Shown one piece after another: positions 23,287 to 26,010 of a stretch of 35,363 bases of DNA. The notes below the pieces were generated by a model, which saw nothing but the letters and a program-made list of their open reading frames with translations, was not told the origin of the DNA and ran no database searches. The first letter of the stretch is position 1; the number at the start of each line of letters is the position of its first letter. This DNA is from Candidatus Vogelbacteria bacterium RIFOXYD1_FULL_44_32 (lineage in GTDB: Bacteria > Patescibacteriota > Minisyncoccia > Phycocordibacterales > XYD1-FULL-46-19). Both the position numbers and the translations under genes were made by a program. Location: contig MHTJ01000004.1 of the NCBI GenBank assembly GCA_001823065.1, forward strand, positions 2,476 through 37,838, written 5' to 3'.

Positions 23287-23964
23287 CTATCGTGACGATA
23301 TTTCTTTGAGGGCTGACAGGATTTGGGTTCTAATACCACTACCGTTTCTAATTTTTATTCTTAAGGTGCCAAAGTGTATTTGGTAATTTTTGTAGTTTCT
23401 CAATACTTTTGTTTTAACTAGACTCGTCTTAGTGAATTGGCTTATATCAGTGCCGGTTAGTGAGCACCAATATTTAAGTACTTCATTGACACGGTGTTTG
23501 TGAATTTCATTTATACTGACTCTTAAAATTAAATTTTCTCTTTTTACTTTGTATATTTGCTCTAGCCATTTGATAATTATTAAAATAATTTTTGGGTCAC
23601 TATTTGTAAATCCAAATTCATTATTTCCTTTTTTATATCCTTCACCCCAATATAGAGCGAGTCCGGCTATGTATAGATCTCTTTTACTCCACTTCCCAAT
23701 GCTATTTTTCCCAGCATTCTCATCATCTTGTTTTTTCTTTTGCTGTATTTGTCTCCTAATATTATTATATTTTTTTAAGGATTTTATCCCCGCAAAATAT
23801 CGGTTTTTTGTTAAAATAATCTTTTGGTTTTTGGAAAGTACAATATCTTTACACCAGCGACTGACTGTGCTTTGACTAATATTTAAAACTAATGATATTT
23901 TTTTAATACCTAAACCATTTTGGCGCAAAATCATTGCTTCTTTTTTCTTTTCAGGCAAAGACAT
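23287..23964 (-). CDS. HTH protein with LAGLIDADG-like motif (putative homing-endonuclease-like)
   Basis: N-terminal HTH (ILRQNGLGIKKISLVLNISQSTVSRWCKD); LYIAGLALYWGEGYK resembles a LAGLIDADG helix with Glu; GFTNSDPKII and LRIKIRNGS follow. Confidence 0.6.
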   Translation of the reverse strand: MSLPEKKKEAMILRQNGLGIKKISLVLNISQSTVSRWCKDIVLSKNQKIILTKNRYFAGIKSLKKYNNIRRQIQQKKKQDDENAGKNSIGKWSKRDLYIAGLALYWGEGYKKGNNEFGFTNSDPKIILIIIKWLEQIYKVKRENLILRVSINEIHKHRVNEVLKYWCSLTGTDISQFTKTSLVKTKVLRNYKNYQIHFGTLRIKIRNGSGIRTQILSALKEISSR

Positions 23965-24068: not shown

Positions 24069-24386
24069 CGCGGGATAGAGGAGAGGTACCTCGGGAGGCT
24101 CAAATTGGGCTCACTATCCAGTAATGGGTAATGGAAACCCTGCCAAATTCGGTGAAACCTTCTTCGTTAAAAGCGAATGGCAACGCCGAGCCAAGCCGAG
24201 CACTACTTTTGGTTTCTAGAATATTCTAGAATTCAAAAGTGGTGCTCGGAAGGTGTAGAGACTAGACGACAGGCACCCTATTATGTAGGGTGAAGGCATA
24301 GTCCAGACCACAAACTTAATATAGGCAGTGAAAACTGTAGTGGTAAGCATAACCTCCAGACGCCGGTTCGATTCCGGCTCCCGCAA
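24069..24386 (+). tRNA. initiator tRNA-fMet(CAT), interrupted by a group I intron (exons 24069-24100 and 24348-24386)
   Basis: Joined exons: CGCGGGA TA GAGG AGAGGTA CCTC G GGAGG CTCATAA CCTCC AGAC GCCGG TTCGATT CCGGC TCCCGCA A. Initiator hallmarks: C1xA72 mismatch, A11-U24 pair. Confidence 0.93.
24101..24347 (+). ncRNA. group I intron (IC3-like, about 247 nt, no ORF) in tRNA-fMet
   Basis: Core strings AAATTCGGTGAAACC, AATGGCAACGCCGAGCCAAGC, AAGGTGTAGAGACTAGACG, AAGGCATAGTCCAG; P1 GGCT|CA-AAT-TGGGCT with U-G at the splice site; last base G. Confidence 0.93.
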
Positions 24387-24458: not shown

Positions 24459-24534
24459 GTCGGGGTAGCTCAGTTGGTAGAGCACAGGACTCATAAGCCT
24501 GGGGTCGTGGGTTCGATCCCCACCTCCGACACCA
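24459..24534 (+). tRNA. tRNA-Met(CAT), elongator-type (Ile2 not excluded), CCA encoded
   Basis: GTCGGGGTAGCTCAGTTGGTAGAGCACAGGACTCATAAGCCTGGGGTCGTGGGTTCGATCCCCACCTCCGACACCA. Confidence 0.93.
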
Positions 24535-24686: not shown

Positions 24687-24748
24687 TAGAATAGTCCCAG
24701 ACCTAATTTTTTGTTTATAAGTGATTAGGTAAAACACCTGTCACGTAA

Positions 24749-24760: not shown

Positions 24761-25447
24761 GTGCCAGTATACAAGTATGTAGATAAAGGTTTTTTTAAGA
24801 AATGGTCACCCAATATGGCCTATGTTTTAGGATTTTTTGCGGCTGACGGGTATATAACTCACAATAAACGTGGGGCATATTTTTGGTGTATCCAAATTAC
24901 AGATAAAAAATTATTAGAACAGATTAAAAATATAATTAAGGCGGAGCATAAAATAAGCACAAGACCAAAGACAGGTAGTGCCAACACTATTTACCGCCTA
25001 CAGATCGGTAGTATTGAGATGTGTTATGATTTGCAAAAATTGGGTTTTATGGAACGTAAGACTAAAAATATGGTTGTGCCTAAAGTACCGCTAGAATATT
25101 TTCCCTATTTTGTTCGTGGTTATTTTGATGGGGACGGAAATGTCTGGACTGGTTATCTAAACAAAGATAGGAAGCAACCCACTTTGGCTATCACCTTAGC
25201 TTTTACTTCTTGTTCCAAGACTTTTTTGAGTCAATTATGGGATAAATTAAAACAATCGGGTGTTAAGGGAGGTTCGATCTATCAGTCTCAAGGAAATTAT
25301 TGCCGACTTCAATTTGGGACTGCTGATACTTTGAAAATTTACAGAATTATGTATAATCAGTCTGTCCTTGTTAAATCTAGTCTTTTTCTGGAAAGAAAGA
25401 GAAGAGTTTTTGATAAGTACAATAAGTTGAAGCGCTTGCGGTCGTAG
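24761..25447 (+). CDS. two-motif LAGLIDADG homing endonuclease
   Basis: YVLGFFAADGYI and YFVRGYFDGDGNV motifs about 100 aa apart; GTG start; stop codon TAG at 25445-25447 lies inside the tRNA-Asp gene. Confidence 0.92.
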   Translation: MPVYKYVDKGFFKKWSPNMAYVLGFFAADGYITHNKRGAYFWCIQITDKKLLEQIKNIIKAEHKISTRPKTGSANTIYRLQIGSIEMCYDLQKLGFMERKTKNMVVPKVPLEYFPYFVRGYFDGDGNVWTGYLNKDRKQPTLAITLAFTSCSKTFLSQLWDKLKQSGVKGGSIYQSQGNYCRLQFGTADTLKIYRIMYNQSVLVKSSLFLERKRRVFDKYNKLKRLRS

Positions 25448-25722
25448 CTCAACTGGTTAGAGCACCCGCCTGTAGAATACTGCAGCTTTTTGCCTAAAGG
25501 TAGATTGAAACTCTCTGGGATATCGGTGAAGGCTAAGTCTTCTTCCAGAAGATATGCGAATACCGAGGGAACCCAGCACATAATATGTGCTGGGGCGCCG
25601 TAGAGACTAGATACCGGAGCACCTAAGTGAAATATCATAAGGTGAAGATATAGTCCACGCCATTATGAAAGTAGTGGATAAGTGCACGCGGGAGGTTGCC
25701 GGTTCAAGTCCGGTCGACCGCG
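25438..25722 (+). tRNA. tRNA-Asp(GTC), interrupted by a group I intron (exons 25438-25473 and 25685-25722)
   Basis: Joined exons: GCGGTCG TA GCTC AACTGGTTA GAGC A CCCGC CTGTCAC GCGGG AGGTT GCCGG TTCAAGT CCGGT CGACCGC G; anticodon GTC; discriminator G73. Confidence 0.93.
25474..25684 (+). ncRNA. group I intron (about 211 nt, no ORF) in tRNA-Asp
   Basis: P1 CTGT|AG-AATA-CTGCAG with U-G at the splice site; ATCGGTGAAGGCT, GAATACCGAGGGAACCC, GCCGTAGAGACTAGATACCGG, GAAGATATAGTCCACGCC; terminal G. Confidence 0.92.
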
Positions 25723-25802: not shown

Positions 25803-25931
25803 GCCCGGGTTTGAAAGTCCTTTCGTTGCCGATCACTAGTTAGATGTTTCTGAGGCTTTGGTCGAAAAGTACCAGCGACCGCCCGCCTGTCATCGCCTAA
25901 GGTCTCAGACAATGGCGGACAGGTAGGGGGA

Positions 25932-25960
25932 AAGTCTGGTCGACCGCGCAAGACCAAAAA
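25932..25960 (+). repeat. direct repeat, copy B: orphan tRNA-Asp 3' end
   Basis: AAGTCTGGTCGACCGCGCAAGACCAAAAA, one mismatch to copy A; no intact tRNA upstream. Confidence 0.95.
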
Positions 25961-26010
25961 CCACCAACGCTCGATTAGCGGTTTTTGTGATATTGGATTA
26001 GGATAAGGAT

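Follow-up and report, generated by a model that had tools for sequence, protein, structure and literature searches.

How does a cell start its proteins when the one initiator tRNA gene in its assembly is interrupted? The question arises from a 35,363-nt stretch of the genome of Candidatus Vogelbacteria bacterium RIFOXYD1_FULL_44_32 (contig MHTJ01000004.1), which we refer to as the window. In it, the two halves of a tRNA gene flank an insert of 247 nt, and an intact tRNA gene with the same anticodon follows a short distance downstream:

24069..24100, forward strand: 5' exon of tRNA-fMet (tRNA positions 1–33), placed by its sequence, by the ARAGORN fold of the joined exons and by its identity or near-identity to intron-less relatives
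24101..24347, forward strand: group I intron of 247 nt, without an ORF of note (RF00028, 50.6 bits; covariation, nine homologues)
24347, forward strand: terminal intron G (omega G), from the sequence; a G precedes C34 in every split tRNA-fMet gene found
24348..24386, forward strand: 3' exon of tRNA-fMet (positions 34–73), ending at A73; joined-exon fold
24459..24534, forward strand: intact elongator tRNA-Met (CAU), distinguished from an initiator by G1-C72

Joining 24069–24100 to 24348–24386 yields a complete tRNA in the ARAGORN fold, and this tRNA bears the marks of an initiator, namely the C1xA72 mismatch, the A11-U24 pair and a CAU anticodon. Of the three G-C pairs usual in the anticodon stem of initiators, two are present (G30-C40 and G31-C39), with A29-U41 at the remaining position. 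CCA is absent from the gene, which continues with CAA after position 73. The last base of the 5' exon is U33 and the last base of the intron is G, although the G before C34 was built into our search pattern and is thus preselected in most of the split genes. When run on genomic DNA, ARAGORN overlooked the split gene, as is expected for a gene with a group I intron.

The assignment of the insert to the group I introns had to be secured by homologues, since its single Rfam score is marginal, lying just above the threshold (cut-off 50 bits, E=3.8e-10). The 5' end given by Rfam (24026) is wrong; we regard it as an alignment artefact, because the exon boundary and the pairing of P1 put the intron at 24101–24347. 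We aligned nine tRNA-fMet introns that share this site and come from nine families, and wrote their structure by hand, including the pseudoknot between P3 and P7. The main elements in the window are as follows:

24097..24111, forward strand: P1, 24097–24101 with 24107–24111; U33 (24100) pairs with G24108 as U·G, in nine of nine introns
24139..24144, forward strand: 5' strand of P3, partner 24268–24273; three of six pairs changed on both sides
24148..24152, forward strand: 5' strand of P4, from the covariation alignment
24260..24264, forward strand: 5' strand of P7 (GACUA), partner 24299–24303, pseudoknotted with P3; covariation
24274..24292, forward strand: P8 hairpin (24274–24278 with 24288–24292); five of five pairs changed on both sides
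24326..24337, forward strand: P9 hairpin with a GAAA loop; three of four pairs changed on both sides

Across this alignment, 97.4% of the cells assigned to helices are paired, compared with 87.3% after shuffling and no more than 48% when the partners are slid, 24 pairs are changed on both sides (11.5 in shuffles), and the covariation score is 0.372 (0.161 in shuffles, at most 0.104 when slid); as the structure was written with the nine sequences in view, the slid and shuffled controls are partly biased, but compensation in P3, P8 and P9 is nonetheless plain pair by pair. For the individual helices, the paired cells amount to 98.1% in P3, 100% in P7 and 97.8% in P8, with three, one and five pairs changed on both sides, respectively. 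The one compensatory change in P7, which is thus paired in all aligned introns, is found at locus L071, and the intron of the window itself has a single CxA mismatch inside P3. By its score, its core from P3 to P8 with the pseudoknot, the U·G pair of P1 and its terminal G, the insert is a member of RF00028. A sequence-only reading of this DNA had described an initiator tRNA, interrupted directly after U33 by a group I intron with a U-G pair in P1. These points are borne out: the tRNA identity by C1xA72, A11-U24, the anticodon and the fold of the joined exons, the insertion point by the exon boundary and P1, the nature of the intron by a score over the cut-off together with the nine-sequence covariation, and the U·G pair by its presence in all aligned introns.

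The same reading had raised the possibility that no other initiator tRNA exists. The genome is available as a 705-kb assembly of 5 contigs, rated 100% complete, in which a tRNA covariance search found 38 intact tRNAs. The elongator at 24459–24534 is the sole CAU tRNA among them, and the AUA codon is served by a UAU tRNA. A census of tRNAs with their anticodons revealed no second initiator in the assembly, and when the split gene served as a DNA query against the genome, no second copy of its exons was retrieved. Within the assembly, the split gene is therefore the only one of its kind, whereas the division into five contigs leaves room for an unassembled second initiator.

The initiator is not alone in this respect. 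Intact copies are lacking for precisely four isotypes, initiator Met, Phe, Asn and Asp, and these correspond to four split genes, interrupted after U33 in tRNA-fMet and tRNA-Phe and after U35 in tRNA-Asn and tRNA-Asp. The four introns are 64–76% identical over aligned columns, and in three of them a hairpin is 88–89% identical. Exact or one-mismatch copies of the P6 hairpin are confined to the fMet, Phe and Asn introns, and we therefore rejected the idea that it is a dispersed repeat. We also rejected splicing of tRNA-Asp and tRNA-Asn after U33, which would give the anticodons UGC or UGU, since the identity of the exons and the intron-less alleles place the splice site after U35, with the anticodons GUC and GUU. 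These three further split genes had escaped the sequence-only reading. The split tRNA-Asp (25438–25722) is located in the window, 1.4 kb downstream of the split tRNA-fMet, and the other two lie elsewhere in the genome:

25438..25473, forward strand: 5' exon of tRNA-Asp(GUC), through U35; joined-exon fold
25474..25684, forward strand: 211-nt intron, the second of group I in the window, interrupting tRNA-Asp after U35 (RF00028, 46.6 bits, below the cut-off)
25685..25722, forward strand: 3' exon of tRNA-Asp; joined-exon fold

Two more group I introns reside in the 23S rRNA of this genome. Several observations were made along the way. In the 23S gene (loci L045, on G000:C1, and L006), one of the two introns has, by eye, a LAGLIDADG-like ORF, and the gene contains an assembly gap of 7 N with a repeated stretch beside it. 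The long tRNA-Asn introns of L075 (585 nt) and L098 (560 nt) contain an ORF that by eye resembles an HNH endonuclease. At L044 (G000:C3:305097-305182), ARAGORN reports a tRNA-Thr(UGU) of low score whose long variable arm makes it look like a type II tRNA, and an ordinary tRNA-Thr(UGU) is present elsewhere. At least 7 of 30 tested tRNA genes are accompanied, at a distance of 110–190 nt, by a 16–24-nt copy of one of their own ends; we noted such copies at 25930–25965 of the window (Asp), at L002 (Phe) and at L007, L008, L015, L018, L019, L021 and L031, and they look as if short elements were flanked by direct repeats of tRNA ends. Upstream of the split tRNA-Asn of L001, around 1380–1410, the stretch ATCGACTGTTAATC duplicates the anticodon arm of uninterrupted tRNA-Asn, perhaps the remnant of another endonuclease operator or of a duplication.

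To trace the split initiator gene in related genomes, we used a pattern of the 3' half of tRNA-fMet with G in place of U33. Among 297 genomes of the order, it matched in nine, which all belong to different families, and each match is a split tRNA-fMet gene whose intron is homologous and sits at the identical site; a reversed control pattern had 0 matches. A pattern with a variant T-loop yielded 12 further genomes, and a relaxed scan added G116, in which the split gene adjoins a relative of the ORF at 23287. The 3' end of a split tRNA-fMet is thus found in 22 of the 297 sampled genomes, in 16 families and always at the same site; this count is a lower bound, and the 5' exon was located in 21 of them, our search expression having missed that of L227. 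Seven relatives within the family of the host have an uninterrupted tRNA-fMet gene (CTCATAA), in which matching exons adjoin with no base missing. One of them, G012, shows synteny at this locus (gatA, a DUF4145-like gene, then tRNA-fMet, tRNA-Met and tRNA-Asp), with both tRNA-fMet and tRNA-Asp uninterrupted. The intron belongs to a lineage at U33 of tRNA-fMet that has a sporadic distribution through the order.

Group I introns are common in this order, with at least one match in 55 of 79 sampled genomes. When applied to the fetched loci, a classifier for split tRNAs recognised no hosts other than tRNA-Asn (14) and tRNA-Asp (7), both interrupted after U35, and tRNA-Phe (3) and tRNA-fMet (8, in addition to L066), both interrupted after U33; as these loci are skewed to high Rfam scores and the classifier requires U before and G after the splice site, further hosts may escape it. 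A search of plasmids gave no match, and in phages the matches were confined to short stretches from the core of unrelated introns.

Group I introns in bacterial tRNAs are established (PMC8450103; PMC4033280; PMC3073962), and those in cyanobacterial tRNA-fMet are known from Synechocystis PCC 6803, Gloeobacter violaceus, Scytonema and Dermocarpa (PMC8450103; PMC5733544); the sequence-only reading had referred to this precedent, in agreement with the literature (PMC8450103). The cyanobacterial introns resemble ours in the host tRNA, the location in the anticodon loop, the group I ribozyme and a sporadic distribution that has been read as lateral transfer (PMC8450103; PMC5733544), but they belong to another bacterial group. 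Moreover, the Synechocystis intron carries a PD-(D/E)-XK endonuclease in P1 (PMC3073962), whereas the intron described here has 247 nt, lacks an ORF and has neighbouring genes instead. No PD-(D/E)-XK ORF is found in its P1, nor could there be one, as the P1 loop comprises only 5 nt. Introns of 22–49 nt are, in turn, too short for a group I core. We have for this reason set aside the group I introns of this length claimed in PMC5733544.

The size of the genome and its rRNA introns point to a CPR bacterium as the host. For small circular CPR genomes, Lui et al. (2021; PMC8172020) traced missing tRNAs to genes with group I introns, and the main text of that study gives no isotypes, sites or structures. 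CPR rRNA genes are also known to harbor group I introns with LAGLIDADG endonucleases (PMC11270868; PMC11809585). These are the same kind of element in similar genomes, as the 23S introns of this genome illustrate, but there an rRNA is the host and the intron itself encodes the endonuclease, whereas here the hosts are tRNAs and the genes are freestanding. In the literature searched, we came across neither tRNA-Asn, tRNA-Asp or tRNA-Phe as hosts nor the U33 and U35 sites. The host isotypes, the sites and the arrangement with freestanding endonuclease genes thus appear to be new to the searchable literature.

This arrangement involves the following features on either side of the tRNA pair:

23287..23964, reverse strand: helix-turn-helix ORF, 225 aa, divergent from tRNA-fMet; candidate mobility gene (neighbour survey, weak Pfam helix-turn-helix match)
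24723..24745, forward strand: GATTAGGTAAAACACCTGTCACG, candidate operator of the LAGLIDADG gene, followed by TATAAT; 14 of 15 fixed bases
24761..25447, forward strand: freestanding LAGLIDADG endonuclease gene with a GTG start and two motifs (Pfam, fold match)

The divergent ORF has a conserved GLALYWGEG motif, and relatives hold the same divergent position at four further split tRNA-fMet loci. Among the 297 genomes, 11 of its 12 nearest relatives occur in genomes with a split tRNA-fMet (hypergeometric 2.5e-13, uncorrected for phylogeny); remoter relatives are often found beside an intact tRNA-fMet and an elongator tRNA-Met. Pfam yields only the weak helix-turn-helix match and none to LAGLIDADG, a profile comparison with I-DmoI is not significant (E=0.047), and a fold search finds neither LAGLIDADG nor any known endonuclease family. 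With all three against it, we reject for now the notion that this protein is a proven LAGLIDADG endonuclease.

The gene before tRNA-Asp is a clearer case. It matches LAGLIDADG_3 in Pfam with 48.8 bits (cut-off 22.5), the acidic residues D29 and D123/D125 are invariant in 20 sequences, and its structural model (pLDDT 91.8) has I-Tsp061I (2dch) as the best match in the PDB (E=1.5e-10, probability 1.00), with the maturase I-AniI among the further fold matches. Its stop codon coincides with U8-A9-G10 of the split tRNA-Asp. Homologues at 30 loci are mostly located before tRNA-Asp, where most of them stop at the same three bases, regardless of whether the tRNA is split or intact; two distant homologues are located at tRNA-Cys. 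Both this gene and the divergent ORF look linked to the spread of the introns. A freestanding endonuclease gene in a tRNA cluster has a parallel in phage T4, where SegB is encoded between tRNA genes and promotes the inheritance of the cluster (PMC2988022), although SegB belongs to an unrelated endonuclease family and the gene described here overlaps the tRNA with its 3' end.

Upstream of the LAGLIDADG gene, we found GGTTAG-N8-CCTGTCACG, the pattern that extends from the D-loop to the anticodon loop in uninterrupted tRNA-Asp, with the same spacing. Of 23 homologues, 14 have it with 12 or more of the 15 bases (shuffles: mean 0.006, maximum 1), at a constant 38–39 nt from the start codon in many families, and by eye it lies between the -35 and -10 elements. 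Conservation in these promoters is limited to the two words and the distance between them; the inner 8 bases and the flanks vary. We consider the pattern a candidate autorepressor site: the LAGLIDADG protein may cut tRNA-Asp at the matching stretch and would also repress its own gene. The T4 endonuclease I-TevI is autorepressed in such a way, with a look-alike of its homing site over the promoter (15/20 identity; PMC2988022). Both cases share a target look-alike that overlaps the promoter, with 14 of 15 fixed bases here and a presumed homing site, but I-TevI is a GIY-YIG enzyme, whereas here the enzyme is a freestanding bacterial LAGLIDADG protein with a candidate operator. Alternatively, the pattern may have remained from a duplication of tRNA-Asp, in a genome where tRNA ends are indeed partially duplicated, or may be an ordinary element of the promoter; either reading seems doubtful to us, as it would hardly account for the conservation of words and spacing only, in 14 of 23 homologues from many families and at a fixed distance. 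Near the split tRNA-fMet, no mimic of an fMet target was found. By eye, intact tRNA-Asp genes beside a LAGLIDADG gene (noted for the 24459 region of the window and for loci L163–L189 across the order) usually depart from GGTTAG..CCTGTCACG, as if they were immune to cutting.

Based on the structure of the intron, its site, the sole-copy status of its host, the empty alleles, the sporadic distribution and the linkage to neighbouring genes, we infer that the intron is catalytic, spliced in the cell and spread by homing. The primary transcript would fold into a group I ribozyme, in which P1 pairs G30–U33 with the internal guide. As is standard for group I introns, an external guanosine would attack after U33, and the freed U33 would then attack after the terminal G to join the exons, which would be matured to tRNA-fMet with enzymatic addition of CCA. 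On this view, such splicing would be needed for all of the genome's initiator, Phe, Asn and Asp tRNA. The intron itself would have spread by DNA homing, probably with the aid of the freestanding genes beside the tRNA and not of an intron-internal gene. That the sole initiator tRNA gene is split by this ribozyme, spliced and was reached by homing is, in our view, very probable. A broader proposal, which we regard as evenly balanced, is that the fMet-Met-Asp cluster serves as a platform for mobile elements, where freestanding endonucleases move the introns and the Asp endonuclease limits itself via the target copy in its promoter.

In the cell, the ribozyme may need help from a protein such as a maturase-like endonuclease, a tRNA synthetase or an RNA chaperone. 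Group I introns often rely on host or intron-encoded proteins (PMC3984707), and the LAGLIDADG and helix-turn-helix proteins are encoded next door, the former with a maturase among its fold matches; yet the split tRNA-fMet genes of L065, L067 and L071 have neither gene within the flanks examined, and the intron core is small and complete, so that we give this reading only tentative credence. Far less probable is a dead intron in a pseudogene, with initiation via the elongator tRNA-Met or via an initiator copy that the five-contig assembly lacks: the exons are intact and fully paired save for the initiator mismatch at 1–72, the intron core is clearly constrained across nine families, and a genome rated complete has no other initiator and likewise no other Phe, Asn or Asp tRNA. 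Finally, as the four sole-copy tRNAs, including the initiator, share a guanosine-dependent step, regulated splicing might act as a switch on initiation or on the supply of Phe, Asn and Asp tRNA, for instance with the level of GTP. We think this improbable, since the patchy presence in close relatives and the links to endonuclease genes fit a tolerated mobile element. Standard two-step group I splicing, with spread of the intron by DNA homing, is our preferred explanation.

If splicing proceeds as proposed, the interruption of the initiator and of three further sole-copy tRNAs would make translation wholly dependent on ribozymes, in a stripped-down genome; drastic genome reduction evidently does not purge such introns. 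The split genes also explain tRNAs that tRNA finders report as missing in such genomes, and when missed, they bias estimates of completeness. The split tRNA-fMet offers a natural system to ask whether splicing limits initiation, and the LAGLIDADG gene, with its stop codon in tRNA-Asp and its target-mimicking promoter, a testable case of self-limiting mobile DNA.
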